The translations under genes were made by a program, and so were the position numbers. Positions 1 through 31,923 of a stretch of 36,879 bases of DNA are shown piece by piece; position 1 is the stretch's first letter; every line of letters begins with the position of its first letter. The DNA is taken from the IMG/VR virus record IMGVR_UViG_3300017527_000157, positions 1-36,879 of that record, one strand, 5' to 3'. This DNA is from a virus. The notes under the pieces were generated by a model. It was not told where the DNA came from and made no database searches. It saw only the letters and a program-made list of their open reading frames with translations.

Positions 1-1290
1 CCCGACATGATGGTTGAGGCTGTGCAGGAGAAGTACGGCGTAAAGCTCACGCCTACAGCAATTGACTTCTCCAACCCAATCGGTACGGTAGACCTTATCG
101 AATACTGGGACAAGGACCAGTATTGTATATTCGCTACGACCTCCCAAGACACAACCGAACCTGGCTCCATCAAACCTGCCAAGGAAGCCATTATGTACCC
201 CCTACAGGAATTGGAAGCCCACAACATGGGTAGGGCTCCATTTTTCGTGGTTCCCAACATATTCAACCCAGGGAAGAACCCAACGCTCGAGGGGTCCACA
301 GCCGATTCGGAACTTGTCAAGGACGAAAACAAACACCTCAACCTTATCCGCACGTTAACGGCATCGGCCATCGCCAAGAACGTAGACCCACCAACGGTAT
401 ATACCTCCGGTGAGGGGTGGTCAAAGCCAACAGCGGACATCCGTATGGGTGCAGGTGAGGTTATTCCGTTGAAAGAAACAGAGGCCCTTACCCCGCTTAC
501 GTGGGTGGGACTCCCAGAAATTGTACGACAGCATGGTATTGACACAGTGAAGGCTATGGAGGACCTGGGGCATTTGCCCCATAGCGCGCTTGCTGGTGGC
601 GGGGATGCTCCATCTGGAGTCGGGGCACGACTAGCGTATGCCAATACGGAAATTTCCCTCGGGTTAAAAGTTCCGTTGCGGTCATTGGTGTTGCAGAACG
701 TCCTATCCTTTAGCCTTTCACTGTGCCAGAAATTCATGGCCCCGAATGGCCGGCTTGAGTATTATGCCGCTGACCGCCCAGGTGCGGGTGAGTCCGGTGA
801 CGTAAAGTTTATTGACGTGTCGTTGTTGCGGGAAGACATCATGGACAAGTTGGGATGTACGGTGTCATATGGTAACCTACTCCCCCGCGACCGCATATCG
901 GAAGAACAGCACGTGGCGTACTTGTATAACCAAAAGTTGTTATCGTTGGCTACCGCACACGAACAGTTAGAGTACGTTACTAACCCAGTGTCGGAATCCC
1001 AGCGGATACATGAGGACCTGCAGGACCCCGTGTTGCATCCAGACGTTGTAGCGTTAACGAAGCAGGCTGAGCAGCAACCCCAACAACCCACTCAACCGCA
1101 ACCACCACAATCTCCGCTCCCCGGCCTCGAACAGCCTGGCCTCGTTAATAGCGCTGCACCAACTGTCCCAAGCGGACCTGAACGCCCGGTGTCGCGCAAT
1201 ACTCCGTTCCTAACACGAACCGGTGGACAGATGGCCCCTACGGCTCGCCCAGGTATGTTCGGCGGTCCGCCAGTTGAGGAGACCCAATAA
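1..1290 (+). CDS. Portal protein, C-terminal part (5' end outside window)
   Basis: The frame is open from the first base, so the true start lies upstream; the first internal ATG is at base 7. The visible 429 residues look like the C-terminal two thirds of a phage portal protein, the dodecameric ring at the packaging vertex. The usual portal sequence layout is visible: a beta-rich segment, a MGRAPFFVVPN stretch, a core with a PLKETEALTPLTWVG strand, and a long helical segment (LAYANTEISLGLKVPLRSLVLQNV). The last 80 residues are a Pro/Gln-rich disordered tail, common in portals. The stop codon overlaps the next ATG by one base (TAATG). Its place before a scaffold and a major capsid gene supports the call. 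The match is by layout and residue pattern only, with no catalytic motif to confirm it. Confidence 0.72.
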   Translation, partial: PDMMVEAVQEKYGVKLTPTAIDFSNPIGTVDLIEYWDKDQYCIFATTSQDTTEPGSIKPAKEAIMYPLQELEAHNMGRAPFFVVPNIFNPGKNPTLEGSTADSELVKDENKHLNLIRTLTASAIAKNVDPPTVYTSGEGWSKPTADIRMGAGEVIPLKETEALTPLTWVGLPEIVRQHGIDTVKAMEDLGHLPHSALAGGGDAPSGVGARLAYANTEISLGLKVPLRSLVLQNVLSFSLSLCQKFMAPNGRLEYYAADRPGAGESGDVKFIDVSLLREDIMDKLGCTVSYGNLLPRDRISEEQHVAYLYNQKLLSLATAHEQLEYVTNPVSESQRIHEDLQDPVLHPDVVALTKQAEQQPQQPTQPQPPQSPLPGLEQPGLVNSAAPTVPSGPERPVSRNTPFLTRTGGQMAPTARPGMFGGPPVEETQ

Positions 1291-4200
1291 TGGCACAGAA
1301 TCAACGTCCATGGCTCAGGGAGTTTGAAGGTCTAGACCCCACGCCGCCCAAACCAAAAACCAAAGATGCCAAGCCTGCAAAGCGCAAACCTGCGGAACTT
1401 GCGCCACCAACTAAATTAAAGAAAGACCCGGATGAATGGAAGAATCGGGGACTTGTCAGGACACAACCACCCAGGTCAACGCTCAGGGGTGAGTTCGGTG
1501 CCCCACGCAAACCGTTTTCGGAGAAGGCTGGGGCTCCAAAGCCCCAAAAGATTCCTGCCAGATACCTTCCACAACCGGCTGAACCCGAAGAGGACAACTG
1601 GCAGGATTACGTATTACCAGGTGTTCAGTATGGCGATGTCTGGCGTCCCAAGGAAAGGAATCCCCTCCCGGCCGCTGTGCCCCTGCCCTCCCCTTCGTTG
1701 GACGAGTCCGACATTCAAGGGTCGGCATACAACATGTGGCTTCACCAGGGGACCGACGCCGACGACCCTGAGGATACCAAGTTATTGAACAGTGTGTTCG
1801 ACCTCATGACTGCACGACCCGAACAGATGGACGTTAAGGTTAGTCCAGATGGTAAGTCCTCCACACCTAACATCCTGAAAATTACTACCAACTTGCTCAG
1901 CCAGTGGGCGTTGGGGTGGGCATCTGTGGAGTTTTCCAAGTTGCCCGAACGGGCCGTGTGGGCATCGTCTAGGATTGGTGCTGAATTCCTGGATGACGTT
2001 CCTACCACGTTGACTCCATCCGATTGGATAGGACAGGAAGCTGGTGGTGCCGGCCTGTTCCAAGAGATGATTGGTAATGCCATTTCCCAGGATGCTGCCA
2101 CGCCCGAGGAACGTGCAACGGCTGTCGATGCATACAAACAATACTGGAACGAGGGGAAGATAGGGTGGTCTTTAATCTTTACCGATGACGAGCACATGTC
2201 TAACTTTATTCGGGATATTGAGGCTGGTATGGATGTTGACGAGTCCATAGAGAAGTATGAGAAGTTTTGGCCTGAGTTCATTGGGGGTATTGTATTTGAC
2301 CCTGACTGGGTTGTAGGAGCTGGACTCATTTCGAAGCTGCTCTTCCCGGCACAGATTGTGGTACAGCCCATCCTGCAAGTCGGTGGTAAGTTGTTACGGA
2401 AGATTCCGATTGCTAAGTGGTTAACCAGTATATCCCAAACATCTAGAATTCGGCTGGAAGTATCCCACGTTAACCATGCCGTGAATGAGGCCATCATGGC
2501 CCGGAACCTGACCGAGGGTGTTAACAGTGCAGGTACGTTGATGAATGACCTGGATGATTTGATGCGTGGGTACAGGTCTGACATATTGAACCACGTATCC
2601 CCCAAGTCCCAACAGGCCCTTGAAAGCCTGCAGGTTGCCATGAGGTCACAGGGTGTGGCCTCGTTCAACGATTTGATGTCCAGGTACAATCCATCATTCC
2701 TCGAACTTAGGGGGAGTGCAAACTGGGAGGCAATGCTCCAAGAAAACCCACAGTGGCTAACCCACTATATTGGGGATGCCACGTATAAGCATGTGTATGA
2801 ACGGGTAACTGGAAAGAAACCTAGCCAGCACCCAGTTCGTCAAGCACTTCAATTCTTCCGGAGGCTACAGAAGGAATTGTTACTTGGTCCTAACCCTGCG
2901 TACATGGTAGGTAACCTCACCGACAACTCCAGTAAGGGAATCCTGAGCGGGTACATTATGAACCCGCTCGAAACGAATCCGCTCCAACGCGTGGCTAAAC
3001 ACGTCGGGGGGTGGGGCGGTATTGTAATGGATACTGTAGACAGGGGCTTTGTTAACATAGAGATTGGGAAGAGTATCGTTCCCAACTGGTCATATGTTCC
3101 CATCCCCGGAATAGGGAAGCCGCCTGAGATTGTTGATACGTTGGAGTTCCTACTTCAAACAAACGTTCGAGAGAAGTTACCTGACTTCCTCCAAAATATT
3201 GTACAACCCCGGAACGTCCCAGAATTGGAAGCTGCTGGACTTGTGGAGCCAATGGGATGGGTAGGTAAGGCATTGGATACTATTAACTTTGCCAGCATTA
3301 TAAAGAAGGGTGGAGACATCTCCAATGGAATAGAGCGGGGAGCTAGGTTACAAATTTACGACCAGGCATTTACGCACTACATGGCCAAGTGGGGTGCTCC
3401 CACTGTGGTTGAGGTTGCAAAGATGGCTGGCGTTCCTGATTCTATTGTTGAGACCATGAGCAAGAAACTTTCCAAAGGAATGTCGTTTGCCGAGGTGTTG
3501 GGGTACATGAGGAATTTCTCCGACATCATTCCCGAGTCCGCCGTATCTGACTTCCTCCCGGCTGACGCCTCCCAATATATGCACAATGCCATGGAGGTAT
3601 TTGATAAGTGGCAAGTGGGTGCGTATGGTGCTGATGACGTATTCGGTACACTTGACCTGATGTTCGAAACCATGGATTCGTTTGTTGACCTCAGCCTCCG
3701 CCGGGCTGACGATATAGCAACAAAAGGTGGGGCCGAGGCGGCTATTTCGGACTTCAAAGCAACCACGTTGAGGTCCATTATTGGTGACGTACAACGCATG
3801 TCCAGGTGGGCCAGGGACGAATTGAACAACAAGGTACGGCAGGACATTGCCGCTAATCCCGAGAAGATAGGGTTTCTGTGGAGCCGGTACTTCGAACAGT
3901 CTAGGGTAATCTCCATGATGACCTTCGATGAAGTACAACGGATGATTAGGGAGACAGACCCCGTCTTGGCCCAGGGTATTCAAGACCTGTATGCGGACAT
4001 GGACATTACATATGCTGGCCGGGTTGTTCCTGCCGACTTCCTTCCGGAAGAGTGGGGGTTGTTTGGTGAAAGGCTGCTCGCACGTCGGGAACTCCTCGAC
4101 CAAAACTTTGATGACTTACTATCCACGCTGGTTCGGGAACCAACCCAAGACAACCTCGATATTGTCCGTGGTACGTTTGAAGAAATCCAGACGTATGCGG

Positions 4201-7200
4201 CTACAGCGGCTGCTAAGGCGGCTGAGATTCGGTTCGGGTACAAGCAGAAGATTGTAGCCGGAACCATTACGGACGTTCAACGGGCTGCATACAAACGACG
4301 TATGGATGACATGTGGAGGCAACAGTATTTCCAGAAGGCGTGGGACTTGTTGGCGCAAACGGCTGACGACATCGGATTCAAGGGGTGGTATGCCCCTGAG
4401 GAATTTGTTGACTTGTCTGGATTCAAGGGTGCGGATGATTACATTTCCTCGAGGGCAGGGAGGGTAGTTGACCCGACTGACCCCGAATACTCAAAGTGGT
4501 ATGGGGACTACCTCGTTCGCAAAACGCTGGGTGAGATTCGTACACCTGCACAGCGGGTTGACTTCCAAAAGTATGACATAGATGGATTCGCCGCTCGGGT
4601 CAAATTCTTTGAGGACACAACGTTTGATACGATTGCCGATTACAAGAAGGCCACGGGCCTCGATGTTGCATTTAACCAGGAACAGGCAAGCCGCCTCATG
4701 AGGCCGTACAAGTCGCAGCATGTCCGGTTGTGGCTGGATGTAGACAATCCAGAGTTCTTCAATACTGTACGAAACGCAACTAAGTCTTCCGACATTGACA
4801 AGGCCGATTGGGGAGCCATCTCGGACCTCATAAACATCTCCACATTGTATGATGAAGTTCCGGCCAATCGGACAGGAATTGTTGTTGAGGTTCCAAGGAA
4901 TCAAGTTACACAATTTCAGGATGGGTACGTACTGGACAAGCGGGCTGATTGGCACGAGGCTGGCGTGGCGTTGGGTGTACTGTGGGATTATGATATACCG
5001 ACACCAGCCATTCGGGGTATGTTCGACGGGTACACAGTTGTTACGGAACGTACAGCCCCCTGGTCATATGGTCGGTTGACGTCTACGGGAATCCCAGCTG
5101 ACATTAAGGACCTGTCGTTGGACGTCGCCCGGAAGATGACCTCGGATGGGGACCTAGACCCAGCAATGTATACAAGGTTGTTCATGCACAACCAGGTTAA
5201 GGCAGGGTTGGACTCCGACATTTCAATGTCACTTACCAAAGCGCACCAGTTAACCGCGGAGGGACGGAAACTTGCTGACGACGTACTTGAATGGTACAAC
5301 GGCGTCAAGAAAAATGAGGGCAAACTCCGCCAAGCGGTGGTACGTACTGGTGAGGAAACAAAGTCCTGGAACCAATCCATAGCAACCGTGGCTGAGACGT
5401 TGACCAAGGAAGTAAAAACGGCACAGCTGTACGGTGCTAAAGAGGTTAACGACAAGCTGTTTGATTACTCAATGCAGGGAAACTGGGAGGAGATTCTCGG
5501 GGCCTTCTACCCCTTTACAACTTGGCAGACACGTAACCCTTTGATGTGGTATCAAATGACCAGGAACCGACCAGCCATTTGGACTACATTGGTTCGGTCT
5601 ATGGCATTGATGAAGAGCCAGCGGGACAGGAACAACCTCACAGTAAGATTTAACGGGACTGTTCCTGTGCCATTCCAAGACCAGATGATTGAGTCAGGGT
5701 TCGCACAGGATGGGTATTATGCAACGGACTTGACCTCCATCTTTTCCATCATGAGCCAGGGACAGGAGCTGTTTATTTCCCCAGCCGAAGACGACGCAAC
5801 CGGGGCTAGGAAGTTGGCAAGTCGGTTGGCTAGGACTGGCGAGTACCTGGGCATGACACCCTATCCAGGTATCCAGGCCGCAGGGCGGTATGTTGCGAGA
5901 CAACTTGACATTCCTGTATCGAACAACCCACCTTACGGATTGACTGGACCTGTGGGGAGGGTCTGGCCGTGGTTGTATAGGAAGGAAATTGAATGGGGTG
6001 AGGTTCGCGTACCTGGTTCGTCATGGTTGAGGGAATATAAGATTAGGCGAGAGCTTGCGTTCATGACACAGATGGGCGAGGTTGACCCTGAGGAAGCATT
6101 CATTGCGGAGGGTGGCAACAATCAACAACTACTTGAAAGTATCAATGACGAGATTATCCAACAGAGCTGGTTGTTCTCAGCGATACGCCTTGCCATTCCT
6201 TTCTCGATAAAGTATGCTTCCACAGGGGAACTTGAATTGCGGGCTGACCGCGCTAAGATGAAAGACATGACCCCTGAACAGCAGGCATTCTTCCGGACGT
6301 CACACCCTGCGCAAGGTGTGTATTCGAGGGCCATTGCGTCTGTGGAGAATCCTGAGTGGGCTGAGTGGATGGCTCGACGGGATGCCATATTTGTACGATA
6401 CGCTCAAATGACATCCAGTCTTCCCCCGTGGCACCCACGCAAAACAGAGCTCAACCAGGCCATGTGGGCAGAAATTGACGGGCTAGGTGACCCACCAGAA
6501 AAGATTGGGGAGACAGGCTACGCCATTGACCCTACATCCCGTACCGCTGTGCTCTACGCATTGGAGGAGATGCGACCCAAGGCGGAAGACTTCGAGGACA
6601 CCAATGGGAACATATCGTGGGAAGAATACTATGATATGGAACAGGAATACCTCCGGGCTGTGCCCGGACTGGCTGATGAACTTGGTCAGGCTATATCGGA
6701 ACAAGAGTACATCAACTTCCGAGAGCGGTATATGTCACCAGAAGAAATTGCATGGAGGGAACGTAAGCGGGACTTCGCGACTGGGTGGGACCGATACCAC
6801 GAACTAAAAGGCGAACAGGTGCCGGAGGAAGGATGGATTCCACGACCCACAAACTACTACGAACCTGAACAGGGGATGGAGTTGCCCATGAACGAATTAG
6901 CCCCTGACTTGCAAGCATGGGTTGAAAGTGAGTGGAAGACGCGGGAAGCCGCTGGGTGGTTACCGGAAGAGTTTGCTGCATGGGTGTCTGGTAAGGGTAT
7001 TCCATATGATGTAATTGAGGGCATGCTGACTGATGAAGGGTACGGTGAGCAGACGTTACAATCTATGTATGGGTACGTGTCCAAGCAACGTCCGTGGTTG
7101 GAAACCCTGCCGTGGACTGACCCACAGTTCGGAAACTTCATGGAGATGCGTCAAGAGGTTATGCCTGGGATGTTTGGGACGGATGACGAGGTAGAACAAT

Positions 7201-8669
7201 TTATAGGTGACTATTATGCCCGGATGCCCGGACAGCGGACACAGATTCGCCGGACGCTTGGGGTTGACCTTGCCCCTGGTGAAACGTTTGCTGAATATAC
7301 CCGGAACAACCCTGAGTTGGCCAACGTATTTTATTCGCTACCGCAGGACGTACAATACAACATACTCCGGTTTACGCCACCCACGGAAACGGAACAGATG
7401 CTTGCGGAACTTGAACGCACCCGATGGGAGTTGGGTACAGGGGAGTGGACGCCATTGGTGGAGAAGTATTACGGCGACCCCGAATCCCCAAGGTCCAAGT
7501 TTTGGGACCTCATTAACTCAATGATACTGGACAGTTCGGCATATGATAATCCTGTGCTTGGACCATTGCTGAATCGTGACACACGGGACGCACTGGACCC
7601 CACGGACGACCAGTACACCAAGGCCATCGAATACGCACAGCTGAACGAGGTGTTCTTGGTAAACAAGGAGGCCACCCAAAAGGCTGAGGAACATCCAGAT
7701 TGGTGGGCCACGGCACAGGAACAGAAGCAAGAGTACAAACTCAACCACCCATACACTAGGGAAGAGGAGATGTATTACGCCCTCGAAACGCCCAAGGAAC
7801 AGGATGAGTGGAGGGATGCGAACCCTGAGGTATGGGCGTCATTCCAGGCCACACGTGAGGCGAAGACCAGGGCACAGATTGAGAATCCATATTACCTGTA
7901 CTTCTTCAACCCGGACAAGTACGAGCAATGGTTCGGTGATACGACCCCTGACCAGGTTGACGTGGAAGTGGAAGTAGAATCCTACAACCAGGCTGTGCAT
8001 GACTCCATTAGGCAAGAGGAGGTCGGCGGGTCGTGGACAGCTGACATGGATAGGTGGTTCGGTTCCCGTGGCTCGGCGTCTGGAAAGTTTTGGGATTACT
8101 ATTTCGCTAACAAGGCATTCCTTGCTGGGTACCAGGAAAACCCAGTAATCATGGCAGCGTTGTCGTCGGATGTTCGGTCGCTTATTCCGTCGGATGCCAT
8201 GATACCTGTGTTTGAAGAGGCCCTTAATCGAATTAAGAGGTATTATGATTCGGAGAAGTCGCACAGGTGGGCTGCATATGCGGGGTTAAGGTCACAGGCT
8301 GACCGCGAAAAGGAACACTTCAAAGAATTGTTCCCGTGGCAAGAGGAAGACCCTGGCGTGGAGTTCTGGTCTCGTCGAAAGAATTGGATACTCAACCATC
8401 CCGCTATGGCGTGGTTCCATTACTACGACTATTATGTGAAGGAGTGGGGAGGTACCCCACCAGACCAGGCTGTGCCTGTCGGCGAATTACAGTGGAACTC
8501 TGGCGGAGGGGGCGGAGGTGGTGGAGGTGGCGAGCCCCCACCGCCCGACAAACCACTCGATGAAGGGGTGCCTGGGGTTGAACCACCTGGCTCGTTAGAC
8601 CCTGATGACTTCCCGGACTTAGGACCTCCTGGGTCGGGGGTTATAGACCGCTGGTCGGGGATTGTGTAA
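1290..8669 (+). CDS. Giant 2459-residue virion protein, likely internal/ejection protein
   Basis: This is the largest gene of the window, a fifth of its length. Residues 1-120 are a Pro/Lys-rich basic linker. A segment near residue 330 (FIGGIVFDPDWVVGAG), one near 531-555 (LLLGPNPAYMVGNLTDN) and one near 1406-1422 (FYPFTTWQTRNPLMWYQ) are of the kind seen in very large phage internal virion or polyvalent proteins. The second half is rich in Trp, Tyr and acidic residues. A divergent tandem repeat covers about residues 2053-2222 and 2249-2393. The C terminus has ten consecutive glycines (2405-2414), then a Pro/Asp-rich tail. No transglycosylase, protease or polymerase motif was recognised. Position between portal and scaffold fits an ejection protein packaged in the head or forming a trans-envelope channel; a tape-measure role is the alternative. 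Function is inferred from size, place and segment resemblance. Confidence 0.55.
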   Translation: MAQNQRPWLREFEGLDPTPPKPKTKDAKPAKRKPAELAPPTKLKKDPDEWKNRGLVRTQPPRSTLRGEFGAPRKPFSEKAGAPKPQKIPARYLPQPAEPEEDNWQDYVLPGVQYGDVWRPKERNPLPAAVPLPSPSLDESDIQGSAYNMWLHQGTDADDPEDTKLLNSVFDLMTARPEQMDVKVSPDGKSSTPNILKITTNLLSQWALGWASVEFSKLPERAVWASSRIGAEFLDDVPTTLTPSDWIGQEAGGAGLFQEMIGNAISQDAATPEERATAVDAYKQYWNEGKIGWSLIFTDDEHMSNFIRDIEAGMDVDESIEKYEKFWPEFIGGIVFDPDWVVGAGLISKLLFPAQIVVQPILQVGGKLLRKIPIAKWLTSISQTSRIRLEVSHVNHAVNEAIMARNLTEGVNSAGTLMNDLDDLMRGYRSDILNHVSPKSQQALESLQVAMRSQGVASFNDLMSRYNPSFLELRGSANWEAMLQENPQWLTHYIGDATYKHVYERVTGKKPSQHPVRQALQFFRRLQKELLLGPNPAYMVGNLTDNSSKGILSGYIMNPLETNPLQRVAKHVGGWGGIVMDTVDRGFVNIEIGKSIVPNWSYVPIPGIGKPPEIVDTLEFLLQTNVREKLPDFLQNIVQPRNVPELEAAGLVEPMGWVGKALDTINFASIIKKGGDISNGIERGARLQIYDQAFTHYMAKWGAPTVVEVAKMAGVPDSIVETMSKKLSKGMSFAEVLGYMRNFSDIIPESAVSDFLPADASQYMHNAMEVFDKWQVGAYGADDVFGTLDLMFETMDSFVDLSLRRADDIATKGGAEAAISDFKATTLRSIIGDVQRMSRWARDELNNKVRQDIAANPEKIGFLWSRYFEQSRVISMMTFDEVQRMIRETDPVLAQGIQDLYADMDITYAGRVVPADFLPEEWGLFGERLLARRELLDQNFDDLLSTLVREPTQDNLDIVRGTFEEIQTYAATAAAKAAEIRFGYKQKIVAGTITDVQRAAYKRRMDDMWRQQYFQKAWDLLAQTADDIGFKGWYAPEEFVDLSGFKGADDYISSRAGRVVDPTDPEYSKWYGDYLVRKTLGEIRTPAQRVDFQKYDIDGFAARVKFFEDTTFDTIADYKKATGLDVAFNQEQASRLMRPYKSQHVRLWLDVDNPEFFNTVRNATKSSDIDKADWGAISDLINISTLYDEVPANRTGIVVEVPRNQVTQFQDGYVLDKRADWHEAGVALGVLWDYDIPTPAIRGMFDGYTVVTERTAPWSYGRLTSTGIPADIKDLSLDVARKMTSDGDLDPAMYTRLFMHNQVKAGLDSDISMSLTKAHQLTAEGRKLADDVLEWYNGVKKNEGKLRQAVVRTGEETKSWNQSIATVAETLTKEVKTAQLYGAKEVNDKLFDYSMQGNWEEILGAFYPFTTWQTRNPLMWYQMTRNRPAIWTTLVRSMALMKSQRDRNNLTVRFNGTVPVPFQDQMIESGFAQDGYYATDLTSIFSIMSQGQELFISPAEDDATGARKLASRLARTGEYLGMTPYPGIQAAGRYVARQLDIPVSNNPPYGLTGPVGRVWPWLYRKEIEWGEVRVPGSSWLREYKIRRELAFMTQMGEVDPEEAFIAEGGNNQQLLESINDEIIQQSWLFSAIRLAIPFSIKYASTGELELRADRAKMKDMTPEQQAFFRTSHPAQGVYSRAIASVENPEWAEWMARRDAIFVRYAQMTSSLPPWHPRKTELNQAMWAEIDGLGDPPEKIGETGYAIDPTSRTAVLYALEEMRPKAEDFEDTNGNISWEEYYDMEQEYLRAVPGLADELGQAISEQEYINFRERYMSPEEIAWRERKRDFATGWDRYHELKGEQVPEEGWIPRPTNYYEPEQGMELPMNELAPDLQAWVESEWKTREAAGWLPEEFAAWVSGKGIPYDVIEGMLTDEGYGEQTLQSMYGYVSKQRPWLETLPWTDPQFGNFMEMRQEVMPGMFGTDDEVEQFIGDYYARMPGQRTQIRRTLGVDLAPGETFAEYTRNNPELANVFYSLPQDVQYNILRFTPPTETEQMLAELERTRWELGTGEWTPLVEKYYGDPESPRSKFWDLINSMILDSSAYDNPVLGPLLNRDTRDALDPTDDQYTKAIEYAQLNEVFLVNKEATQKAEEHPDWWATAQEQKQEYKLNHPYTREEEMYYALETPKEQDEWRDANPEVWASFQATREAKTRAQIENPYYLYFFNPDKYEQWFGDTTPDQVDVEVEVESYNQAVHDSIRQEEVGGSWTADMDRWFGSRGSASGKFWDYYFANKAFLAGYQENPVIMAALSSDVRSLIPSDAMIPVFEEALNRIKRYYDSEKSHRWAAYAGLRSQADREKEHFKELFPWQEEDPGVEFWSRRKNWILNHPAMAWFHYYDYYVKEWGGTPPDQAVPVGELQWNSGGGGGGGGGGEPPPPDKPLDEGVPGVEPPGSLDPDDFPDLGPPGSGVIDRWSGIV
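7446..8468 (+). repeat. Divergent tandem protein repeat inside the giant virion gene
   Basis: Two copies can be aligned by eye in the C-terminal part of the giant protein: copy 1 at about bases 7446-7955 (residues 2053-2222) and copy 2 at 8034-8468 (residues 2249-2393). Shared landmarks in order are WT, an aromatic pair followed by G, KFWD, NPV, a leucine plus D-R segment followed by LDPTDD or LIPSD, an NPEVW or DPGVEFW block, a Tyr-rich block, and a closing FG-TTPDQ or GG-TPPDQ. The DNA copies are too diverged to be a recent duplication. Confidence 0.6.
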
Positions 8670-17416: not shown

Positions 17417-19540
17417 ATGACTAAACCTAAGGTAGGCCTAACACATGACGTGGTTATCTACCCAATTAATAGCAACGTGGAGCCGATTGGGTTGTCCGTC
17501 ATTCCATTTACATACAGGGTATACAACGCACCAGACCGGGTTCCAAGGTTAGCTGGTGGAGACCCTACGGGGTACGATTATTCATCTTATGCCTCGTGGG
17601 TACAGGATAGTTGGGAAGGGCAGAGTGGGTTACTACGCGCTGATGGGCATGGGTATAGAAGGGCCGTCGGGCTCGTACCCATTCCGACAGGATACCCCCT
17701 CGCCCTGGTAAACAGACCCCACAGATTTGTAGCGAACACGTATGATACAACCTCTGACACTACCCACATGGACAGTCCATGGGGAACCCCAGGTGTGGCT
17801 GTGCACAACGTCGCTACGACTGTTGGTAGCAACAGCCCAGTCTATACCAGTCCTGACAATTCAGGGTATTACTACCAGCGAACGAGGGTAGGTATAGGGA
17901 AGGTACTTTTCCAGCCTCTGGTTGCAACCATAGGTGGCATGTACGTTACTATGGGTGTAGCTGGGACAACTCCATCGTATATCTACGACATGGTGGAACA
18001 TTCCACTGTTGTGTACATATCACAGTATAGTGGGGTGGCTGCTGGCGAAGGTATGCGATGGACGAACATGATGGCACACTGTTACAATACAGTGTACGAA
18101 CCAGTTGGTAATACGACGGCTGGGGCACTGGCTGTGTACGACGAAAAGTTGTGGCGGTCTCGACCCATATCTGACCAGATAGCGTACTACCAGCCCACGG
18201 AAAGCACAGTGGGGAAATGGTCCTCATGGGTTGACGTAAAGCCTGGTATACGAATAATGCGGATGGCGGAGTTTATCGGACGCCTCATGATTGGTGCCAA
18301 CGACGGACTATATGCGTATGAGGCTGGGCGCACATACAGGGTGATGTCATTCGAGGACGATACATCCAGGGATAACTTTATGTTGATGTCTGTCATGGCA
18401 GGGTCGTTATGGTTCAACATAGGGGAGCGGTTGTTTAGGTACACATCAGGCGGGCTGCTCGAGGAAATGTCCGTGACCATAGAAGAGGGTGAGATACCCA
18501 TGAGGATTGTCTCAGGCCCTAACTGTGTGTATATGATGTGTGGGGACATAAGTACCGGACAACGGAGTGTATACAGGGTAGACATTAACCTGGGGTCTAC
18601 ACAGATATTGGATGCCTCGGTAGACGATGGGTACAAAGCAAGCATCTACGACCCATTCGGTTCGGAACATTGCACAGGCAGACCAGACGAGGGCCTACCC
18701 ATGCCCACACTATTCAGGATTCCGGGTGAGCGTATCACGTTGGAGAATGCAAGGGCTGGTAATTCCCCGTTGGTGTTCGGACCCGTAACAGACGAGGTGT
18801 CTGGTACGGTATTGACACAGAACTGGCTAAACTTCGGCGACCCAATAACCACGCTACGAACCAAGGGAACCGAACAAAACTTTACGGCGGAGAGGTACCT
18901 TGAAACCGGAATGATTGACATGGGATACCCACTATTGGCCAAGTCGTGGCAACGTGTTAGGTTGAAGGTATCCAACCAACCCCTCGGAACAGATACGTTC
19001 GAGTCCGTGTATTACAGGACATCAAACAGCCTGCGGTGGATGCTGACGGAGACCAAGTCGTATTCATCCAATGACCGGGACGGCTATGTTACGTTTGACT
19101 TCCCGAATGGTGGTGTGGTATCGAGGGAGATTGAACTCAAACCGTACCTTGCCATGCTATCTACCAACGTTTCCAAGGCTGATGTTCCAATGACGTTGGA
19201 CAGGGTAGAATTGGATGCCATGTTCATAGGCCCTGTTGGTAACTCGTCATTGCGCAGGCGCAGGATGATTACGTTCAGGTCCAATGCCGTGAACAACTTG
19301 AAGAGGATTAACATGGAAACAGAAAACTCCGCCGCATACGTACAGCAAACCCTGTGGAGTATTATGGATTCCGGACAGGCACACGTCGTATCCTTGCCAT
19401 ATCCACCACCTACGGGGCACACCACGAAAGCCATCGTATCTTTGGGTGATGAAGGTGCCCACGTACCAGTGGTAGCATATACTGTGGGTGGCGACCATTC
19501 GATTGGCGTCCACTTTCCAGTGGTGATAACGGAGGTATAA
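17417..19540 (+). CDS. Large tail structural protein, propeller-like (nozzle or hub candidate)
   Basis: A 707-residue protein composed mainly of predicted beta strands with repeating short blades, such as SSWVDVKPGIRIMRMAEFIGR (two strands, shown as WVDVKPGIRIMRMAEF), LMIGANDGLYAYEAGRTYR, and MAGSLWFNIGERLFRYTSGG. The pattern 'strand, GANDGLYAY, strand, ERLFRYTSGG' resembles blades of beta-propellers found in podoviral nozzle (tail tubular B-like) proteins. The C-terminal 170 residues are strand-rich and may be an attachment or receptor-side domain. No hydrolase motif was seen. It overlaps the next gene by one base. It is certainly a tail-region structural gene by location; the nozzle assignment is tentative. 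Confidence 0.5.
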   Translation: MTKPKVGLTHDVVIYPINSNVEPIGLSVIPFTYRVYNAPDRVPRLAGGDPTGYDYSSYASWVQDSWEGQSGLLRADGHGYRRAVGLVPIPTGYPLALVNRPHRFVANTYDTTSDTTHMDSPWGTPGVAVHNVATTVGSNSPVYTSPDNSGYYYQRTRVGIGKVLFQPLVATIGGMYVTMGVAGTTPSYIYDMVEHSTVVYISQYSGVAAGEGMRWTNMMAHCYNTVYEPVGNTTAGALAVYDEKLWRSRPISDQIAYYQPTESTVGKWSSWVDVKPGIRIMRMAEFIGRLMIGANDGLYAYEAGRTYRVMSFEDDTSRDNFMLMSVMAGSLWFNIGERLFRYTSGGLLEEMSVTIEEGEIPMRIVSGPNCVYMMCGDISTGQRSVYRVDINLGSTQILDASVDDGYKASIYDPFGSEHCTGRPDEGLPMPTLFRIPGERITLENARAGNSPLVFGPVTDEVSGTVLTQNWLNFGDPITTLRTKGTEQNFTAERYLETGMIDMGYPLLAKSWQRVRLKVSNQPLGTDTFESVYYRTSNSLRWMLTETKSYSSNDRDGYVTFDFPNGGVVSREIELKPYLAMLSTNVSKADVPMTLDRVELDAMFIGPVGNSSLRRRRMITFRSNAVNNLKRINMETENSAAYVQQTLWSIMDSGQAHVVSLPYPPPTGHTTKAIVSLGDEGAHVPVVAYTVGGDHSIGVHFPVVITEV

Positions 19541-20541
19541 TGCCGTCATTAAAACTTAGTGCATTACACCCCCGACAGGCCATGTACAGCCGGTATTGGG
19601 AGCGAAGGACAGCTGCTATGGACCGCATGGGTCCTGGGGTGTTACAAGCCACCAGGACCCGGTCTGACCAACCTGGGTGGGTGGACTACTACCCAGACTT
19701 TCCCGGAACCATCGTCGAGAAGATGATATTCCAGGAGCTTGTGGACAGAGGCATCACGTTTTACTTTGGTGCGTATTGGGGGGACATGCCCTTTACAGCG
19801 GCATACGAACGATACAGGCCGGACTTCATACTTCCAGAGTACAAGATTGTATTGGAGGTTTACGGCGCGTATTGGCACAGCCGGGAGGGGATGTACAAAA
19901 AGGATGCGTGGAAAGAGGCGCTATACACAGCCTCAGGGTACAAACACTACATACTTTGGGATTACGAAATCTACACCAATCCCGCTGAGGTACTCAACAA
20001 GGTTCCTGAATTGCTTAACCCAATCTACACCACAAAGCACGTGTTCGTGGCTGAACGTCCATTTGACCCCACGGCGTCACTGGTTGCACAGCGCCAGAAG
20101 GGTCCTAAGGTTGTGCGCACCCACTTACCCCGTAGACCACAGAAGTACACCCCTCTGGCTGTGCATAAGCCCTACCTCAAACTCCCGAAGGAACCACCAT
20201 CGGACGCTGATTGGGGTCCTAGGTTTACTGGGTTGCCAGACGAATCGGCTGAATACTTCTCCGACTATGGGGCTGACTGGCGCAGGTATATGAATCAGTT
20301 GGATGCCTTCTTCAAAGAAGACCCCAACCGAGGCCGGCAGTATCCGTCACATTGGAGGTATTGGGCGAAGTGGTACAACTGGATGACAAGGTGGGATAGG
20401 TTAACGGAGGAAGACTGGGTGGACTATTACAACCAGTTGGAAACGTACTTCAATGCGTACCCCGATGCTTGGAAGAAATACCGTTCGCAATACTACGAAT
20501 GGCAATCATGGAGGAAGGCAGGGGTGGTGAAGATATGGTAA
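19540..20541 (+). CDS. Vsr/PD-(D/E)XK-type nuclease with Trp-rich C-terminal domain, in tail operon
   Basis: A 333-residue protein. Residues about 55-160 look like a Vsr-like or DUF559-like endonuclease: E60 in a helix (GTIVEKMIFQELVDRG), then RPDFILPEYKIVLEVYGAYW with D95 and E106 as PD and ExY metal-binding positions, then H113, then a helix and GYKHYILWDYEIYTNP. This matches the order helix-E, PD, strand-E-x-G, WH, helix, G-strand-W of that fold. After a Pro/basic linker (180-215), the C-terminal 100 residues carry two Trp/Tyr-rich helical segments (DWRRYMNQLDAFF; DWVDYYNQLETYF) that repeat each other. A nuclease overlapping tail genes at both ends is odd. It may be packaged and injected, or be a moron gene. 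Catalytic activity is likely since all core residues are kept. Confidence 0.65.
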   Translation: MPSLKLSALHPRQAMYSRYWERRTAAMDRMGPGVLQATRTRSDQPGWVDYYPDFPGTIVEKMIFQELVDRGITFYFGAYWGDMPFTAAYERYRPDFILPEYKIVLEVYGAYWHSREGMYKKDAWKEALYTASGYKHYILWDYEIYTNPAEVLNKVPELLNPIYTTKHVFVAERPFDPTASLVAQRQKGPKVVRTHLPRRPQKYTPLAVHKPYLKLPKEPPSDADWGPRFTGLPDESAEYFSDYGADWRRYMNQLDAFFKEDPNRGRQYPSHWRYWAKWYNWMTRWDRLTEEDWVDYYNQLETYFNAYPDAWKKYRSQYYEWQSWRKAGVVKIW

Positions 20542-26818: not shown

Positions 26819-27211
26819 CTATATCGAGTCGGCTTTGGTTTGTTCACCTGATACTTTAAAGTATAGGTCAGCCATCTCCGTGGGGTCATTACTGGACGCA
26901 TATGCCAAGCACGCTTCGAGCACACCTCTGCGTTTTGGGCACAGCGGTATGAACTTGTTACAGAACAGTATCACGTCTGGTTCCCGTACCATGTGGAACT
27001 CACAAATGGTACGGGTGGCATTGGTTATGTTCTTGTGCGGTACTGACATGTCCCTGGTGTGGCGCAGCACAGTCTTGTCGGAAGTTCGTATGCCCAGGCT
27101 CAGTATTCCAACCTTGTTTATCCTTACCCGGAGGTTACACTCCACCAGCGCAATGGCTAACTTATCCATCCTGGTAAGGCTACTGAACGGGTTTGTATCT
27201 TGCCTCATCAT
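26819..27211 (-). CDS. Hypothetical protein, last gene of the replication operon
   Basis: A 130-residue protein that overlaps the 3' end of the polymerase gene by 32 bases if it starts at 27211. An alternative start at 27169 avoids the overlap but has no ribosome binding site; the 27211 start has only a weak GAAAG. Its second half has cysteines that could bind a metal (ICEFHMVREPDVILFC, IPLCPKRRGVLEAC). No membrane helix or known catalytic motif was seen. The frame is intact to the terminator, and the opposite strand frame here has no ribosome binding site, so a real gene on the minus strand is favoured. Function unknown. Confidence 0.5.
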   Translation of the reverse strand: MMRQDTNPFSSLTRMDKLAIALVECNLRVRINKVGILSLGIRTSDKTVLRHTRDMSVPHKNITNATRTICEFHMVREPDVILFCNKFIPLCPKRRGVLEACLAYASSNDPTEMADLYFKVSGEQTKADSI

Positions 27212-29972
27212 AGTCTTTCAATGACCCCCATCGTTTCCCAAACTTGACATCCGCCTTATGTGGTACGGATGGGAAGTATTCCCCCGCTGTGCTCACCATC
27301 ACACGTTGAAGGTCCTTCGCTACACAGGGTACCAGGTCATTTGGCGCAAAGAAGATGATGCTATCATGAACCGATACCCCCAACACTACGTCTGGAATGT
27401 CCTTGTACATCTCCGTCATTCTCAGCGCAGATATCAATGTGACATCAGCCGCTCCCGATTGTATGGGATTGTTCTGTCCGGCATGTATCACGTCAATCTT
27501 GTTCCTGTTGTTGATGGCTAGGAACCGTCGCTTCCGGTTGAATGGGGATGTGATGACCCCAGTCTTAACAGCGAGGCGTCCTTGTTCCTCACGCCATTCA
27601 GCCGCGACAGCGAACGTTGATTCCCAGTCGTCCGCAAACTTACGCGCCATGTCATCCGGGAACCGTAAAGCGTCACGAGCAATCTCGTAAACGTTTCCTC
27701 CGTACAGCCACCCGAACACGGCTCGTTTACAGTACCAGTTTCGTTGTTCTTTGGTGAAGTTTGGTCCATATATTGTCTTAGCAACCTCCGAATGAAAGTC
27801 TGAATCGTCCTTGTTGAATGACTCTATCATGAACGGGTCCTGTGACAGGTGTGCTGCTATCCTCAACTCACATTGCGAGAAGTCGGCATACACCAACTGA
27901 CATCCCTCTGGTGCCACGAACATGTCGGAGATTGCTTTACCCCAATGCTCGTCGTCCCGTGGGATAGTTTGGAGTGCCGGTCCAGACGCAGACAACCTAC
28001 CCGTTACCGTTCCATGTATGGCATACCGTGTATGTACCCTACCATCTGTACCCAACAACCTCAGGAATGGCTTAACGTACCCATTACGCATTTTAAGGAT
28101 TCGTCTGTACACTTTCAGGTTTCGTATGAATTGTAAGTTGACTGGCTTACACCAGTTAGGTAGCCATACCCCATCCAGGTGGTCCCAGTATGCCTTCAAC
28201 AACAAGTCCAGGTGTTCTTTACCGTCGGCTGTGCGCATCCTAGACCACCTGTCCAGGTTTGCATCACCCATGTCCAACGTGTCCCGAAGCATGTCCTCGT
28301 GTTTCTTGATAAGTACCTTTTGTATTGCAGTCCGGAACTCATCAATCATTTTATCCTGGGCTTCCTTGGCTGTACTGCGGGGTTTCAACTTCTTGCCCCT
28401 GGATATGGTACGTGCCTCAACTGTAGGTATGCCTATTACATCGTATATCAACCCAGCCATAACTTGCGAGCTGTTCGGGTTTACTTCCCCCAACATAGCC
28501 CTTGCAAGTGTTTTGAGATACAACCGCCTCTCTTGGTCACGCTTCGACAAGTCCCGTACCTTCCCCTTGTTTAGGATGTTCAATTCCTTGGACATCTCAG
28601 GGTTGTACTTGGGTATGGACACGGCATACGCTACCTCGTTGATGTCCTGTAACGCCTTGTCCAGCGCAGGTTGGATGTCGAACTCGTCCACCCACTTGAC
28701 GTGTGGTACGTCCACAGGAAAGCCAGCCAGTTCAGATTCCAACAACATCTCCACGTATGACATGACAGGGAACATGAACGGCTTTTCGTACAGCCCCTGT
28801 TGTTTCATGTCCTTCTCGAAGATGTATGCCAGGCTTCGGGTTGCCTCGGTGTCCAACGCACAGTATGGATATAGTACCTTCCTTGGTATGTTCGAGTATT
28901 TGCCGGACCTGCCACCAGGTATCCATTGCGTTGCCTCGTCCTCATAGTCCGGGTCGAAATCGAGGTAGTCAGCCGACAGTTGTTTCAAACCGTGTGTACC
29001 CTTCTCCTCCCACAGTACGTAATGCGCCAGCATGGTATCGAAGTCAACACGTGCTGACCCCACCCCCAACTGTGCCCTCATGAACCGGAGGTCAAACTTC
29101 CCGTTGTGTGCTACCCACTTGATGTGGTCGAGTGCAAACAGTTGGTCGAGGAAGTATCTCGCATCCTTATCCACCATGTCAGGTGTTATCTCGTCCCCAG
29201 GTGTGTACGTGGATTGGTCGAACGCGTCGCTGTTGTATATGTACCCATCAGGGATGATGACGGCTGACTCCTCGTCATATGTTATCCCAATGCACAGCAC
29301 GCGGTCACGTTGGTAGTCTATCTGGTCAGTTTCCAGGTCAAACGATACGTATGTCCCATCGTACCTCGGTTGCATTAGGTGCTGTATGAAGTCATTAAGT
29401 ACTGTGTGTGACCGGATTACATGGTAGTGTGGGGAGGGCACAGCGATGGGGCCCCTCTTTAACTTTTGAAGGTCAAAGTACAACAGCCGTGATTGTTCTA
29501 GGTTACGCACGACGTATGCTGGATGTACAGTGGCCAGCACCCTGTGCCCCGTTACCGATTCATACCACCGCCGACCAGTTAGCACAGGCTTACCAGTGGT
29601 GTGTGGTACCAACGCCTCCCGAGACCACTTACCCGTTACGAGTATGGGCGTGTCTATCGGCACGTCGGCGACCAACTCCATCAACAATGAATCCTGTACC
29701 TCCATGGCTATGTCAGCCGTCATGGTGTTGTTACGTGGTCGCCACTTGGACAGGTTGGTGAGGTAACATTCCTCTCGGTTGATACCAACCATGTCCATGA
29801 ACGCATTGAGTAGTTTGCCTGCGCGACCAACGAATGGCCGCCGCTGTGCATACTCCGTTTGTCCGGGTGCCTCCCCGATGATTACGTACTTCGCAGTAGC
29901 TGGGTCACCCTCAGGTGGTACGAAATGTGTGCCAACTGTACCATTGGGAATTCTTTCAATCTTAGGGCACAT
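27180..29972 (-). CDS. Uracil-DNA glycosylase / family A DNA polymerase fusion
   Basis: A 930-residue replicative polymerase with three parts. Residues 1-175 are a family 4-like uracil-DNA glycosylase: GEAPG (33-37), RPFVGRAGKLL (45-55), TNLSKWRP (72-79), VHPAYVVRN (149-157). The four cysteines that hold the Fe-S cluster in family 4 enzymes are missing (KCRP has become KWRP). Residues about 205-385 are a 3'-5' exonuclease with D212/E214 (FDLETD), HNGKFD (289-294) and YCALDTEAT (D374). The polymerase follows: motif A VYADFSQCELR (D697), motif B RNWYCKRAVFGWLYGG (K749), motif C VSVHDSII (D870), where the usual HDE is HDS. The 5' end overlaps the DpdA-like gene by eleven bases. Glycosylase-polymerase fusions are known from SPO1-type phages with modified pyrimidines. 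The polymerase should be active; glycosylase activity is uncertain. Confidence 0.9.
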   Translation of the reverse strand: MCPKIERIPNGTVGTHFVPPEGDPATAKYVIIGEAPGQTEYAQRRPFVGRAGKLLNAFMDMVGINREECYLTNLSKWRPRNNTMTADIAMEVQDSLLMELVADVPIDTPILVTGKWSREALVPHTTGKPVLTGRRWYESVTGHRVLATVHPAYVVRNLEQSRLLYFDLQKLKRGPIAVPSPHYHVIRSHTVLNDFIQHLMQPRYDGTYVSFDLETDQIDYQRDRVLCIGITYDEESAVIIPDGYIYNSDAFDQSTYTPGDEITPDMVDKDARYFLDQLFALDHIKWVAHNGKFDLRFMRAQLGVGSARVDFDTMLAHYVLWEEKGTHGLKQLSADYLDFDPDYEDEATQWIPGGRSGKYSNIPRKVLYPYCALDTEATRSLAYIFEKDMKQQGLYEKPFMFPVMSYVEMLLESELAGFPVDVPHVKWVDEFDIQPALDKALQDINEVAYAVSIPKYNPEMSKELNILNKGKVRDLSKRDQERRLYLKTLARAMLGEVNPNSSQVMAGLIYDVIGIPTVEARTISRGKKLKPRSTAKEAQDKMIDEFRTAIQKVLIKKHEDMLRDTLDMGDANLDRWSRMRTADGKEHLDLLLKAYWDHLDGVWLPNWCKPVNLQFIRNLKVYRRILKMRNGYVKPFLRLLGTDGRVHTRYAIHGTVTGRLSASGPALQTIPRDDEHWGKAISDMFVAPEGCQLVYADFSQCELRIAAHLSQDPFMIESFNKDDSDFHSEVAKTIYGPNFTKEQRNWYCKRAVFGWLYGGNVYEIARDALRFPDDMARKFADDWESTFAVAAEWREEQGRLAVKTGVITSPFNRKRRFLAINNRNKIDVIHAGQNNPIQSGAADVTLISALRMTEMYKDIPDVVLGVSVHDSIIFFAPNDLVPCVAKDLQRVMVSTAGEYFPSVPHKADVKFGKRWGSLKDYDEARYKPVQ

Positions 29973-30939
29973 AGCTCATCACCGTACCCGGAAGTAGTGC
30001 CGCTTCTTCCTTGGAGTGGCAGTACGTCAGGTGGTTCTCGTTGTCCACATAGTACCCATCAGGCATGCCCAGGAATTGTAACTCGGCAAACAAGTTGGAG
30101 AATGGACGACCATAGTATTGATTGTACGCTATGGTGTCCAACATCCGCTTAGGTATCTTGCCAACCTGTGTGTTACCCCAACACCACGCCTTCATGAGCT
30201 GCACGTTCACGTGTATCAGGTTAGTTGCCTGAGGGGTGATTGACTTGTATTGGTGCCTCAATTTCAGGGGTATCTTGGGTGAGTGTGGTCCGAGCAGCCT
30301 GCCAGAATACCCTAGTTGGAATGGTAGTGATGTATCCACACCGACCACGTTGGGTATCTCCAATGCCATTGGTAACATCTTATAGAAGAACACCTCCGGC
30401 TGTGCTACCCCCAACAGGTGCATCTTCCTGTCACCTACGAGGGGTTTCATCTCTTCCCACGCCTCACCACGCCAGAACGCTCCCTTGGTACGGTTCTGGC
30501 ACCAACCTATCCATAGTTCAAACTTCTTATCCATATCATACTTGACCCATGTATCCATCCACTGGTCTAAGGTACTGAGGTATTCATCAAGGGTGTTGCC
30601 TTGCGGGTTAAACATCACCGCCCCGGCTACACCATTGAGGGACGCCAACGCATCCCAGGATTTTCTGCATGTCTCAATTCCATCATACAGTACATCAGGA
30701 AGTACAACAACATCAGCCCGAACCATACGACACGCATCGGTCAACGTCTTAGGTGATACAGAACGTCTCTCGAACGCACCGTTGTCCAGTATGACGATAC
30801 ACTCCTCTTGCCTGAATGATTCGGCATAGTACCTTGAATACGCAGCCCTCGTAAAGACCCACTGGGCAAGCACCATGTGGTACTTGCCCTTTGCGATTTG
30901 GTGGGTGAATTTGGGTGCTGTAATTACAGCAAACTCCAT
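29962..30939 (-). CDS. dpdA: DpdA-like TGT: 7-deazaguanine insertion into DNA
   Basis: A 325-residue TIM-barrel protein resembling phage relatives of tRNA-guanine transglycosylase that exchange guanine in DNA for a 7-deazaguanine. Visible marks in order: LDNGAFE with D52 (equivalent to the DSGGF aspartate of TGT), VVLPDVLYDG with D82, FNPQGNTLDEY, IGWCQNRTKG, HLLGVAQPE, and NVVGVDTSLPF with D202 at the place of the TGT nucleophile. It lacks the C-x-C-x2-C zinc motif of tRNA-modifying bacterial TGT, which fits a DNA-acting DpdA rather than a cellular enzyme. AGGAGG sits five bases before the ATG, embedded in the end of the DUF1599-like gene. A YhhQ-type transporter lies two genes upstream in the same operon, supplying the likely substrate. 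The exact DpdA subfamily and base produced cannot be read from sequence alone. Confidence 0.74.
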   Translation of the reverse strand: MEFAVITAPKFTHQIAKGKYHMVLAQWVFTRAAYSRYYAESFRQEECIVILDNGAFERRSVSPKTLTDACRMVRADVVVLPDVLYDGIETCRKSWDALASLNGVAGAVMFNPQGNTLDEYLSTLDQWMDTWVKYDMDKKFELWIGWCQNRTKGAFWRGEAWEEMKPLVGDRKMHLLGVAQPEVFFYKMLPMALEIPNVVGVDTSLPFQLGYSGRLLGPHSPKIPLKLRHQYKSITPQATNLIHVNVQLMKAWCWGNTQVGKIPKRMLDTIAYNQYYGRPFSNLFAELQFLGMPDGYYVDNENHLTYCHSKEEAALLPGTVMSYVP

Positions 30940-30940
30940 A

Positions 30941-31318
30941 CTACCCTCCTATTGTAACCTCGTCACCAGCCCTGAGGCCAGTCCATGTTGTTCGGTCATC
31001 CCACATCCGTAGTGCAGCGTCAAGGAAACATGCATAGTTGATGATGTCAGGTATCTCCTTGCGCATCTGTTCCCGAAGTTTCGGGTCTGTTGTACGCCAG
31101 TCCATGTTAATGACTGACCGAACACGCCCAGCCTTCTTCTCGATTTCGTGTAACATGCCCTCAGGCGTTAAGCGATAGTATGTGGGGGTGGTCTCCCTAT
31201 CATACTCATCACTCCGTTGGTCGGCTATTGACTTCGACTTCTCCAGTGCTGCTAGGTAGAAGTCCCAGAACTTTTGTTGCCGGCTGTTGAGAAATTCCAT
31301 GTCCTCTTCTGGTAACAT
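30941..31318 (-). CDS. DUF1599/Nmad1-like small helical protein
   Basis: A 125-residue protein. The start at 31318 is fixed by AAGGAG four bases upstream and by a one-base TAATG overlap with the transporter stop; an upstream extension of the frame would run backwards into the transporter gene. It appears all-helical. The segment IEKKAGRVRSVINMDW, followed by an acidic residue and IPDIINYACFLDAALRMW, resembles the DUF1599 (nucleotide modification associated domain 1) pattern of a K-A-x-R helix followed by a D-x-x-x-Y-A helix, related in plan to MazG-like nucleotide hydrolases. It lies between YhhQ and the DpdA-like gene, so a part in nucleotide or modified base handling is suggested. The match is short and should be treated as tentative. 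Confidence 0.45.
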   Translation of the reverse strand: MLPEEDMEFLNSRQQKFWDFYLAALEKSKSIADQRSDEYDRETTPTYYRLTPEGMLHEIEKKAGRVRSVINMDWRTTDPKLREQMRKEIPDIINYACFLDAALRMWDDRTTWTGLRAGDEVTIGG

Positions 31319-31923
31319 TAGTCTCCTTTTACCAAGCCAATCATCCACACGGACGCTATAGTAACCAACGCCTTGAAGATAACCTGACCAGTAACCACCT
31401 GCCACATCCCAGCCGCACCGAACGCTATCAGCGTAAACAATATGCTGTCAAGTACCAGGCCCACAGCGTTGGATGCCAACACACGTACTGCTGGTGATGC
31501 ACCCCACCCCCACACTACCTCGTATACAAAGGTGTCCACTGTCTCGGACACCCACTCGGCAACGATGGATGCTATGGTTATTCGTGGTACGACGGAGAAC
31601 ACAGCAGCGAACGCCGCTTGTCCTTCCCACCACACAGGGGCCCTGAGCCCCACCATTAACAACGTATACAATGACAGGAAGATGTTAGCAACAACAGCCA
31701 TCGTGATGGCCCGCTGTGCCGTAACTCCCCCATACCTGCGGTGTATCAGGTCACGCAGTGTGAACGTCAATGCAAAGATGAACGTTCCCGCTGGCAACAC
31801 AACACCACCAACATCCAACAACTTGACAGCGGACACATCCGCTACCAACTGGGCAGCTATGTAGCCACCTATCAATGCTACCCCTGTCCAAGATACCTCT
31901 CGTTTAATTTCTACACCCTGCAT
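31318..31923 (-). CDS. yhhQ: YhhQ-type queuosine precursor transporter
   Basis: A 201-residue membrane protein with about six helices. The family signature is clear: DVGGVVLPAGTFIFALTFTLRDLIHRRYG near residues 37-65 (shown as VVLPAGTFIFALTFTLRD), ITIASIVAEWVSETVDTFVYE (ASxxAxxxSxxxDxxV), and SNAVGLVLDSILFTLIAFGA (S-x-x-x-G-x-x-x-D-S-x-x-F). These are marks of the VUT/DUF165 family, which imports preQ0 or preQ1. AAGGAG stands eight bases before the ATG. Length is close to that of bacterial YhhQ. Encoded with a DpdA-like enzyme, it most likely brings a 7-deazaguanine precursor into the infected cell for DNA modification. preQ0 biosynthesis genes (folE, queD, queE, queC) were not recognised in the window, which would fit salvage. 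Confidence 0.85.
   Translation of the reverse strand: MQGVEIKREVSWTGVALIGGYIAAQLVADVSAVKLLDVGGVVLPAGTFIFALTFTLRDLIHRRYGGVTAQRAITMAVVANIFLSLYTLLMVGLRAPVWWEGQAAFAAVFSVVPRITIASIVAEWVSETVDTFVYEVVWGWGASPAVRVLASNAVGLVLDSILFTLIAFGAAGMWQVVTGQVIFKALVTIASVWMIGLVKGD

Follow-up and report, generated by a model that had tools for sequence, protein, structure and literature searches.

The gene cluster of phage CAjan includes yhhQ, queE/C/D, folE, dpdA, clamp and polymerase genes. The modification of CAjan DNA is a partial replacement affecting ~32% of G, and it is abolished by deletion of dpdA (PMC6884629). In CP220 and CPt10 DNA, 100% of dG is reported to be replaced by dADG (PMC8306585), and in 2019 the Campylobacter phages were considered to have no DpdA and to make modified dGTP instead (PMC6884629). 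Mycobacteriophage Orion encodes DpdA, and its DNA is without 7-deazaguanine where the precursor is absent (PMC6884629). A transporter gene lying directly upstream of, and overlapping, a DpdA gene is found in mycobacteriophage StevieRay (gp53-gp54, YhhQ-like and DpdA-like) and in Streptococcus phage MS1 (gp5-gp6). Thus, the combination of YhhQ, DpdA and polymerase is already known from CAjan, and YhhQ beside DpdA from StevieRay and MS1, so that the precedent claimed for this pairing in the original prediction exists. The PurZ/MazZ/DatZ/DpoZ 2-aminoadenine system combines a dNTP hydrolase, a base-altering enzyme and its own polymerase (in part PMC12783734).

The locus compared with these systems lies in a window that makes up an entire IMG/VR record, linear and 36,879 bases long, a fragment starting at a portal-like gene and stopping within a replication operon. 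It has in common with CAjan-type loci a TGT-fold DNA enzyme, a yhhQ gene in the cluster and a polymerase gene close downstream; the CAjan-type enzyme, however, belongs to another subfamily and has no MazG, kinase or DUF1599-like neighbours. StevieRay and MS1 share the transporter arrangement with the window and differ in the type of DpdA and in having neither a DUF1599-like gene nor an adjoining polymerase. The window resembles the 2-aminoadenine system in this logic, with another enzyme and another predicted base, and the window polymerase reaches 84.6 and 50.2 bits with DpoZ profiles, far under the cut-offs of 500 and 350. The locus is read here as a module for modifying the genome with 7-deazaguanine; its DpdA is of the type found in CP220 and phiST, and it is probably fed by salvage (probability of roughly 0.78).

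Organisation of the operon

Genes of the operon follow on the minus strand in the order exonuclease-like, Sak4-like, SSB-like, primase-like, a small gene, yhhQ, DUF1599-like, dpdA and UDG-polA. The last four are as follows.

31318..31923, minus strand: yhhQ, putative preQ0/preQ1 importer of the Vut_1 family, 201 aa (Vut_1 and TIGR00697 matches; orthologue in phage L007)
30941..31318, minus strand: DUF1599-like small helical partner, 125 aa (PF07659 match below cut-off; TAATG and AGGAG at the start; recurrence upstream of dpdA)
29962..30939, minus strand: dpdA-like gene for a TGT-fold guanine transglycosylase of the CP220/phiST type, 325 aa (structure model; profile match to 7ui4; subfamily profile)
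27180..29972, minus strand: UDG-like, 3'-5' exonuclease and family-A DNA polymerase domains, 930 aa (Pfam; overlap with dpdA; orthologue in phage L007)

The original prediction described a tight operon of three genes that overlaps the polymerase gene by eleven bases, and both its coordinates and its gene calls are correct. The dpdA gene starts 1 base past the DUF1599-like stop with AGGAGG ahead, and the re-measured dpdA/polA overlap is exactly 11 bases, ATGTGCCCTAA. The DUF1599-like gene probably starts at ATG 31318 (125 aa) and not at GTG 31405 (154 aa): this ATG shares one base with the yhhQ stop (TAATG) and has AGGAG ahead, and the relatives of the protein begin at the equivalent point.

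YhhQ matched Pfam Vut_1 with an E-value of 2e-30 and 106.5 bits (cut-off 27.2) and the queuosine precursor transporter family TIGR00697 with 67.8 bits (cut-off 50.95). Both scores bear out the transporter signature noted from the sequence. In the polymerase, Pfam revealed an N-terminal, family-4-like UDG domain (3e-20), an exonuclease (8e-21) and pol A (1e-60).

The order YhhQ, DUF1599-like, DpdA, UDG-PolA is retained in two diverged phages. L007, which is the same phage as L011-L013, keeps the primase, the small gene, yhhQ, the DUF1599-like gene, dpdA and, downstream of it, UDG-polA at identities of 42-43% for the primase, 41% for yhhQ (in the same position as in the window), 37% for the DUF1599-like protein, 29-31% for dpdA and 45% for polA. 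Since a phage diverged to this extent keeps the order, the arrangement is not due to chance. In L010 the order is QueC, yhhQ, a small gene, DUF1599-like, two tandem dpdA genes and UDG-polA. Taken together, the two orders indicate that this dpdA lineage has kept yhhQ and the DUF1599-like gene beside it over time.

An N-terminal UDG-like domain was observed on nearly every family-A polymerase linked to a DpdA of the CP220/phiST type. The carriers are the window, L010, L011, L014, L015, L017, L020, L022, L025, L028, L030, L033, L038, L040, L043, L046, L047, L050, L051, Youna2, BSTP5 and StAshley; polymerase A of VpKK5, which has a CAjan-type DpdA, is without it. The window domain keeps the GEAPG and HPA motifs, and some of its Fe-S cysteines seem to be missing. 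Adjacency of the polymerase gene had been considered a sign of novelty; this idea was dropped, as CAjan-type loci show the same adjacency.

The DpdA-like enzyme and its small partner

A single-sequence search with the window DpdA gave a DNA-guanine transglycosylase, 7ui4, as the sole solved relative (E 0.066). With a profile of 32 phage-contig homologues the E-value for 7ui4 was 7e-6, and no other solved protein, including any tRNA TGT, was found. The structure was predicted with high confidence (pLDDT 90.6, pTM 0.90), and all 50 PDB matches listed by Foldseek were TGT (E 2e-8 to 1e-6). The TM-score to TGT is only ~0.45, which makes the protein a diverged member of the TGT fold. The homology and fold proposed at the outset thus withstood the structural comparison that had been called for.

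Residues D52, D82, D202, F56, E57, P81, H174, L176 and G177 are invariant across the 32 aligned homologues, and the C-x-C-x2-C zinc motif of tRNA TGT is absent from the window DpdA as read directly from the translation; both points agree with the original prediction, which had singled out the three aspartates. Profile-profile comparison of window-type with CAjan-type DpdA gave a probability of 96.4. It placed D52 at the aspartate of D-S-G-A-F in CAjan DpdA, D82 at the second aspartate, H174 at the histidine and D202 at the aspartate of D-S-S.

As judged by profile scores, the window DpdA is a member of the CP220/phiST/immuto subfamily and not of the CAjan type. A subfamily profile from which the window, L010 and L011 had been left out gave 136.6 bits for the window protein, as compared with 157.6 for immuto, 157.4 for phiST, 142 for BSTP5, 138 for Youna2 and 136 for CP220 (range over the subfamily, 83 to 158 bits). 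Ten CAjan-type proteins did not exceed 12 bits with it, and the window DpdA reached 8.6 bits with the CAjan-type profile. Proteins of the CP220/phiST type were reportedly named DpdA3 by Cui et al. 2023; those of the CAjan type are DpdA1. In CP220, phiST, immuto, BSTP5 and Youna2 the residues D52, D82, H174 and D202 are likewise invariant, and several of these genes lie near polA. The window protein differs from them by ~60 additional residues at the C-terminus. The window DpdA alone gave no match in IMG/VR, a two-sequence profile then retrieving 48 loci, and a genome-contig scan gave no relative. In L010 (7215-8975), the first of the two tandem dpdA-like genes reads LDTHPFE instead of LDNGAFE, a possible sign of a heterodimer in which one subunit is non-catalytic.

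The small protein encoded directly upstream of dpdA matched PF07659 with an E-value of 0.026 and 15.3 bits, under the curated cut-off of 25. Weak matches to the same model positions were obtained for 3 of 19 relatives (best E 0.0037). Searching 2,435 ORFs with a three-protein profile of the partner recovered L010 (5e-15) and L054 (4e-10), and a five-member profile added further weak matches (E 1e-4 to 0.05), nearly all directly upstream of dpdA. On iteration the family grew to 25 members, and at 18 of 24 non-redundant carrier loci the member is encoded on the dpdA strand, no more than 1 kb upstream of that gene; the E-values of the iterated profile are inflated by inclusion, and the non-iterated run is the fairer test. 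K91, R94 and D120 are conserved, and N123 and Y124 are present in most members (numbering of the 154-aa form). A viral scan retrieved the L007 phage only, a PDB profile search gave no solved relative, and tblastn against phages gave nothing convincing. An assignment as MazG was not adopted, given that Foldseek with a model of the protein (pLDDT 76.5, over-long start) found no significant match and profile comparison with the MazG neighbours returned a probability of only 10%. The suggestion that the DUF1599-like protein is a new partner gains from the recurrence of its family directly upstream of dpdA. It is a real, conserved partner, and its role in the pathway most likely concerns the nucleotides. 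Judging from the searchable literature, the family is new, and a small, conserved and uncharacterised partner family is thereby named.

Possible source of the 7-deazaguanine precursor

FolE, QueD and QueE genes lie beside dpdA in some CP220/phiST-type records, and QueC is common in these records (22/44 above cut-off). YhhQ is uncommon there (4/44, representing two phages). Youna2, BSTP5, L047 and L050 have preQ0 genes between the primase gene and dpdA, whereas the window has yhhQ in their place. The search for folE and queDEC that had been proposed earlier found no QueC, PTPS or FolE (GTP cyclohydrolase I) within the 36,879-base linear fragment, and the L007 record is likewise without QueC and FolE. 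Given this gene content and the yhhQ gene in the primase-dpdA interval, modification by salvage is plausible for the window phage. L010 has QueC beside yhhQ, hence YhhQ need not mean pure salvage. For the salvage part of the original prediction this makes a plausible case at most: the sequence is a linear fragment, and L010, the nearest YhhQ-bearing relative, also carries QueC. If confirmed, a salvage-type variant might allow the modified base to be selected by feeding the host.

In L010, QueC lies directly upstream of yhhQ and no FolE is present in the 17-kb record; either the remaining preQ0 genes are outside the fragment, or QueC uses an imported or host-made precursor. The small gene between the primase gene and yhhQ was considered as a QueD remnant and rejected after profile comparison. 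A different small family with HRHxFH and SCEMIA motifs lies just upstream of dpdA in L021, L027, L031, L032, L034, L036, L039 and L049, and phiST gp040 (L110, 4195-4542) belongs to it. Profile comparison (probability 82%) suggests that this family is a diverged PTPS/QueD relative.

Nucleotide enzymes beside dpdA and the level of base exchange

A MazG or DUF1599-like gene was found within 5 kb of dpdA at 29 of 50 non-redundant CP220/phiST-type loci. When P-loop kinases were included, the count rose to 42/50, as compared with 0/10 CAjan-type loci, with custom profiles trained on the CP220/phiST-type group. Because of this training, Pfam was taken as the more neutral check. In 84 proteins flanking CP220/phiST-type dpdA it identified AAA_18, AAA_28, AAA_33 and thymidylate kinase families, MazG, NDK, HD, dUTPase and deoxyribosyltransferase, and none of these kinase, MazG, NDK, HD, dUTPase and deoxyribosyltransferase families in 44 proteins flanking the CAjan type; the gene sets were picked by hand and the CAjan-type control loci come from few lineages, so p-values calculated for the contrast carry little weight. 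Individual arrangements are NDK-kinase-DpdA (L028), deoxyribosyltransferase-thymidylate kinase-DpdA (L056), MazG-PTPS-like-kinase-DpdA (phiST), HD/P-loop protein-DpdA-thymidylate kinase (CP220) and MazG-DpdA-formyltransferase-thymidylate kinase (immuto). The window has the DUF1599-like partner, not a kinase or a classical MazG. Nearness to replication genes alone cannot explain the contrast, since both DpdA groups lie close to the polymerase. Nothing relevant was found in the literature on DpdA3 or on a link of MazG to CP220/phiST-type DpdA, and, by the searchable literature, the systematic nucleotide-enzyme neighbourhood is new as well.

In the proposed module, YhhQ would supply the cell with preQ0 or preQ1 from outside. 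The TGT-fold enzyme would cleave the N-glycosidic bond of guanine, with D202 as the putative nucleophile in an active site that also contains D52, D82 and H174, and would put a 7-deazaguanine in guanine's place. The adjoining polymerase would copy the phage genome, which would be extensively modified and would withstand host nucleases. Gene order, protein families, fold, conserved catalytic residues, subfamily and the recurring partner are observations made here; for the window phage, we infer the substrate, the product, import, nuclease protection and the level of exchange, DNA or nucleotide. The module reading is supported by the TGT fold, the 7ui4 match, the catalytic residues, the subfamily, the preQ0 genes in relatives, the kept gene order and the position in a replication operon. 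Counting against it are the TM-score, the unmodified DNA of Orion despite its DpdA, and QueC beside YhhQ in L010. YhhQ and a TGT fold are also used in tRNA queuosine salvage, and the two proteins might in principle recover Q precursors for host tRNA, with DNA modification being a prediction here. This is very improbable, as the DpdA has no zinc motif, its profile finds 7ui4 and no tRNA TGT, the subfamily includes that of CP220 with its modified DNA, the genes lie in a replication operon, and no tRNA genes were found in the window.

Within the module reading, base exchange could take place at two levels. The enzyme could act exclusively on DNA behind the fork, with the small partner aiding targeting or processivity; this has about an even chance, as the fold and residues are like those of DpdA and TGT, and adjacency to the polymerase is common to CAjan-type loci. 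It leaves unexplained, however, the nucleotide-enzyme neighbourhood that is absent at those loci. Alternatively, guanine might be exchanged on free dGMP (or dGDP/dGTP): a MazG, HD or DUF1599-like hydrolase would drain dGTP to dGMP, phage or host kinases would make 7-deaza-dGTP, and the linked polymerase would incorporate it, leading to complete replacement in the manner of PurZ/MazZ/DpoZ. The neighbourhood counts, the Pfam scan and the L028 and L056 arrangements argue for this route, and a modified-dGTP route was proposed for Campylobacter phages (PMC6884629). On the other hand, the substrates of TGT and CAjan-type DpdA are polynucleotides, phage replication regions often contain nucleotide enzymes anyway, and the counts depend on profiles trained on the CP220/phiST group and controls from few lineages. 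The window also has no kinase of its own, and its DUF1599-like protein, for which a hydrolase role is putative, has no solved relative. Cui et al. 2023 are said to have judged DpdA3 insertion to be post-replicative. Thus, enzyme precedent favours DNA, evenly balanced as that reading is, and the neighbourhood favours free nucleotides, a reading held at somewhat under even odds. Extending the latter to the subfamily as a whole, working on free deoxyguanosine nucleotides with hydrolase and dNMP kinase partners as a salvage-fed, independent invention of the PurZ type, is slightly more tentative.

The CP220/phiST-type context predicts extensive replacement and an involvement of the nucleotide pool. 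Control of nucleotide pools by the partner, merely touched on in the original prediction, fits the neighbourhood of the subfamily. The question bears on whether dG replacement in CP220-like phages proceeds by DNA exchange or through modified dGTP.

Among the structural genes of the window, a weak Vsr/DUF559-type endonuclease-like domain is encoded at 19540-20541. For the 2,459-aa protein encoded immediately after the portal-like gene (1290-8669), PHROGs and Pfam gave no match. Besides a glycosyltransferase-like protein, the segment 11028-16163, also among structural genes, encodes two group-1 glycosyltransferases along with a radical SAM protein carrying a B12-binding-like domain, and is possibly a hypermodification or surface-glycan cluster; the radical SAM protein shares 53% identity with its counterpart in the L007 phage and is thus better kept than polA.
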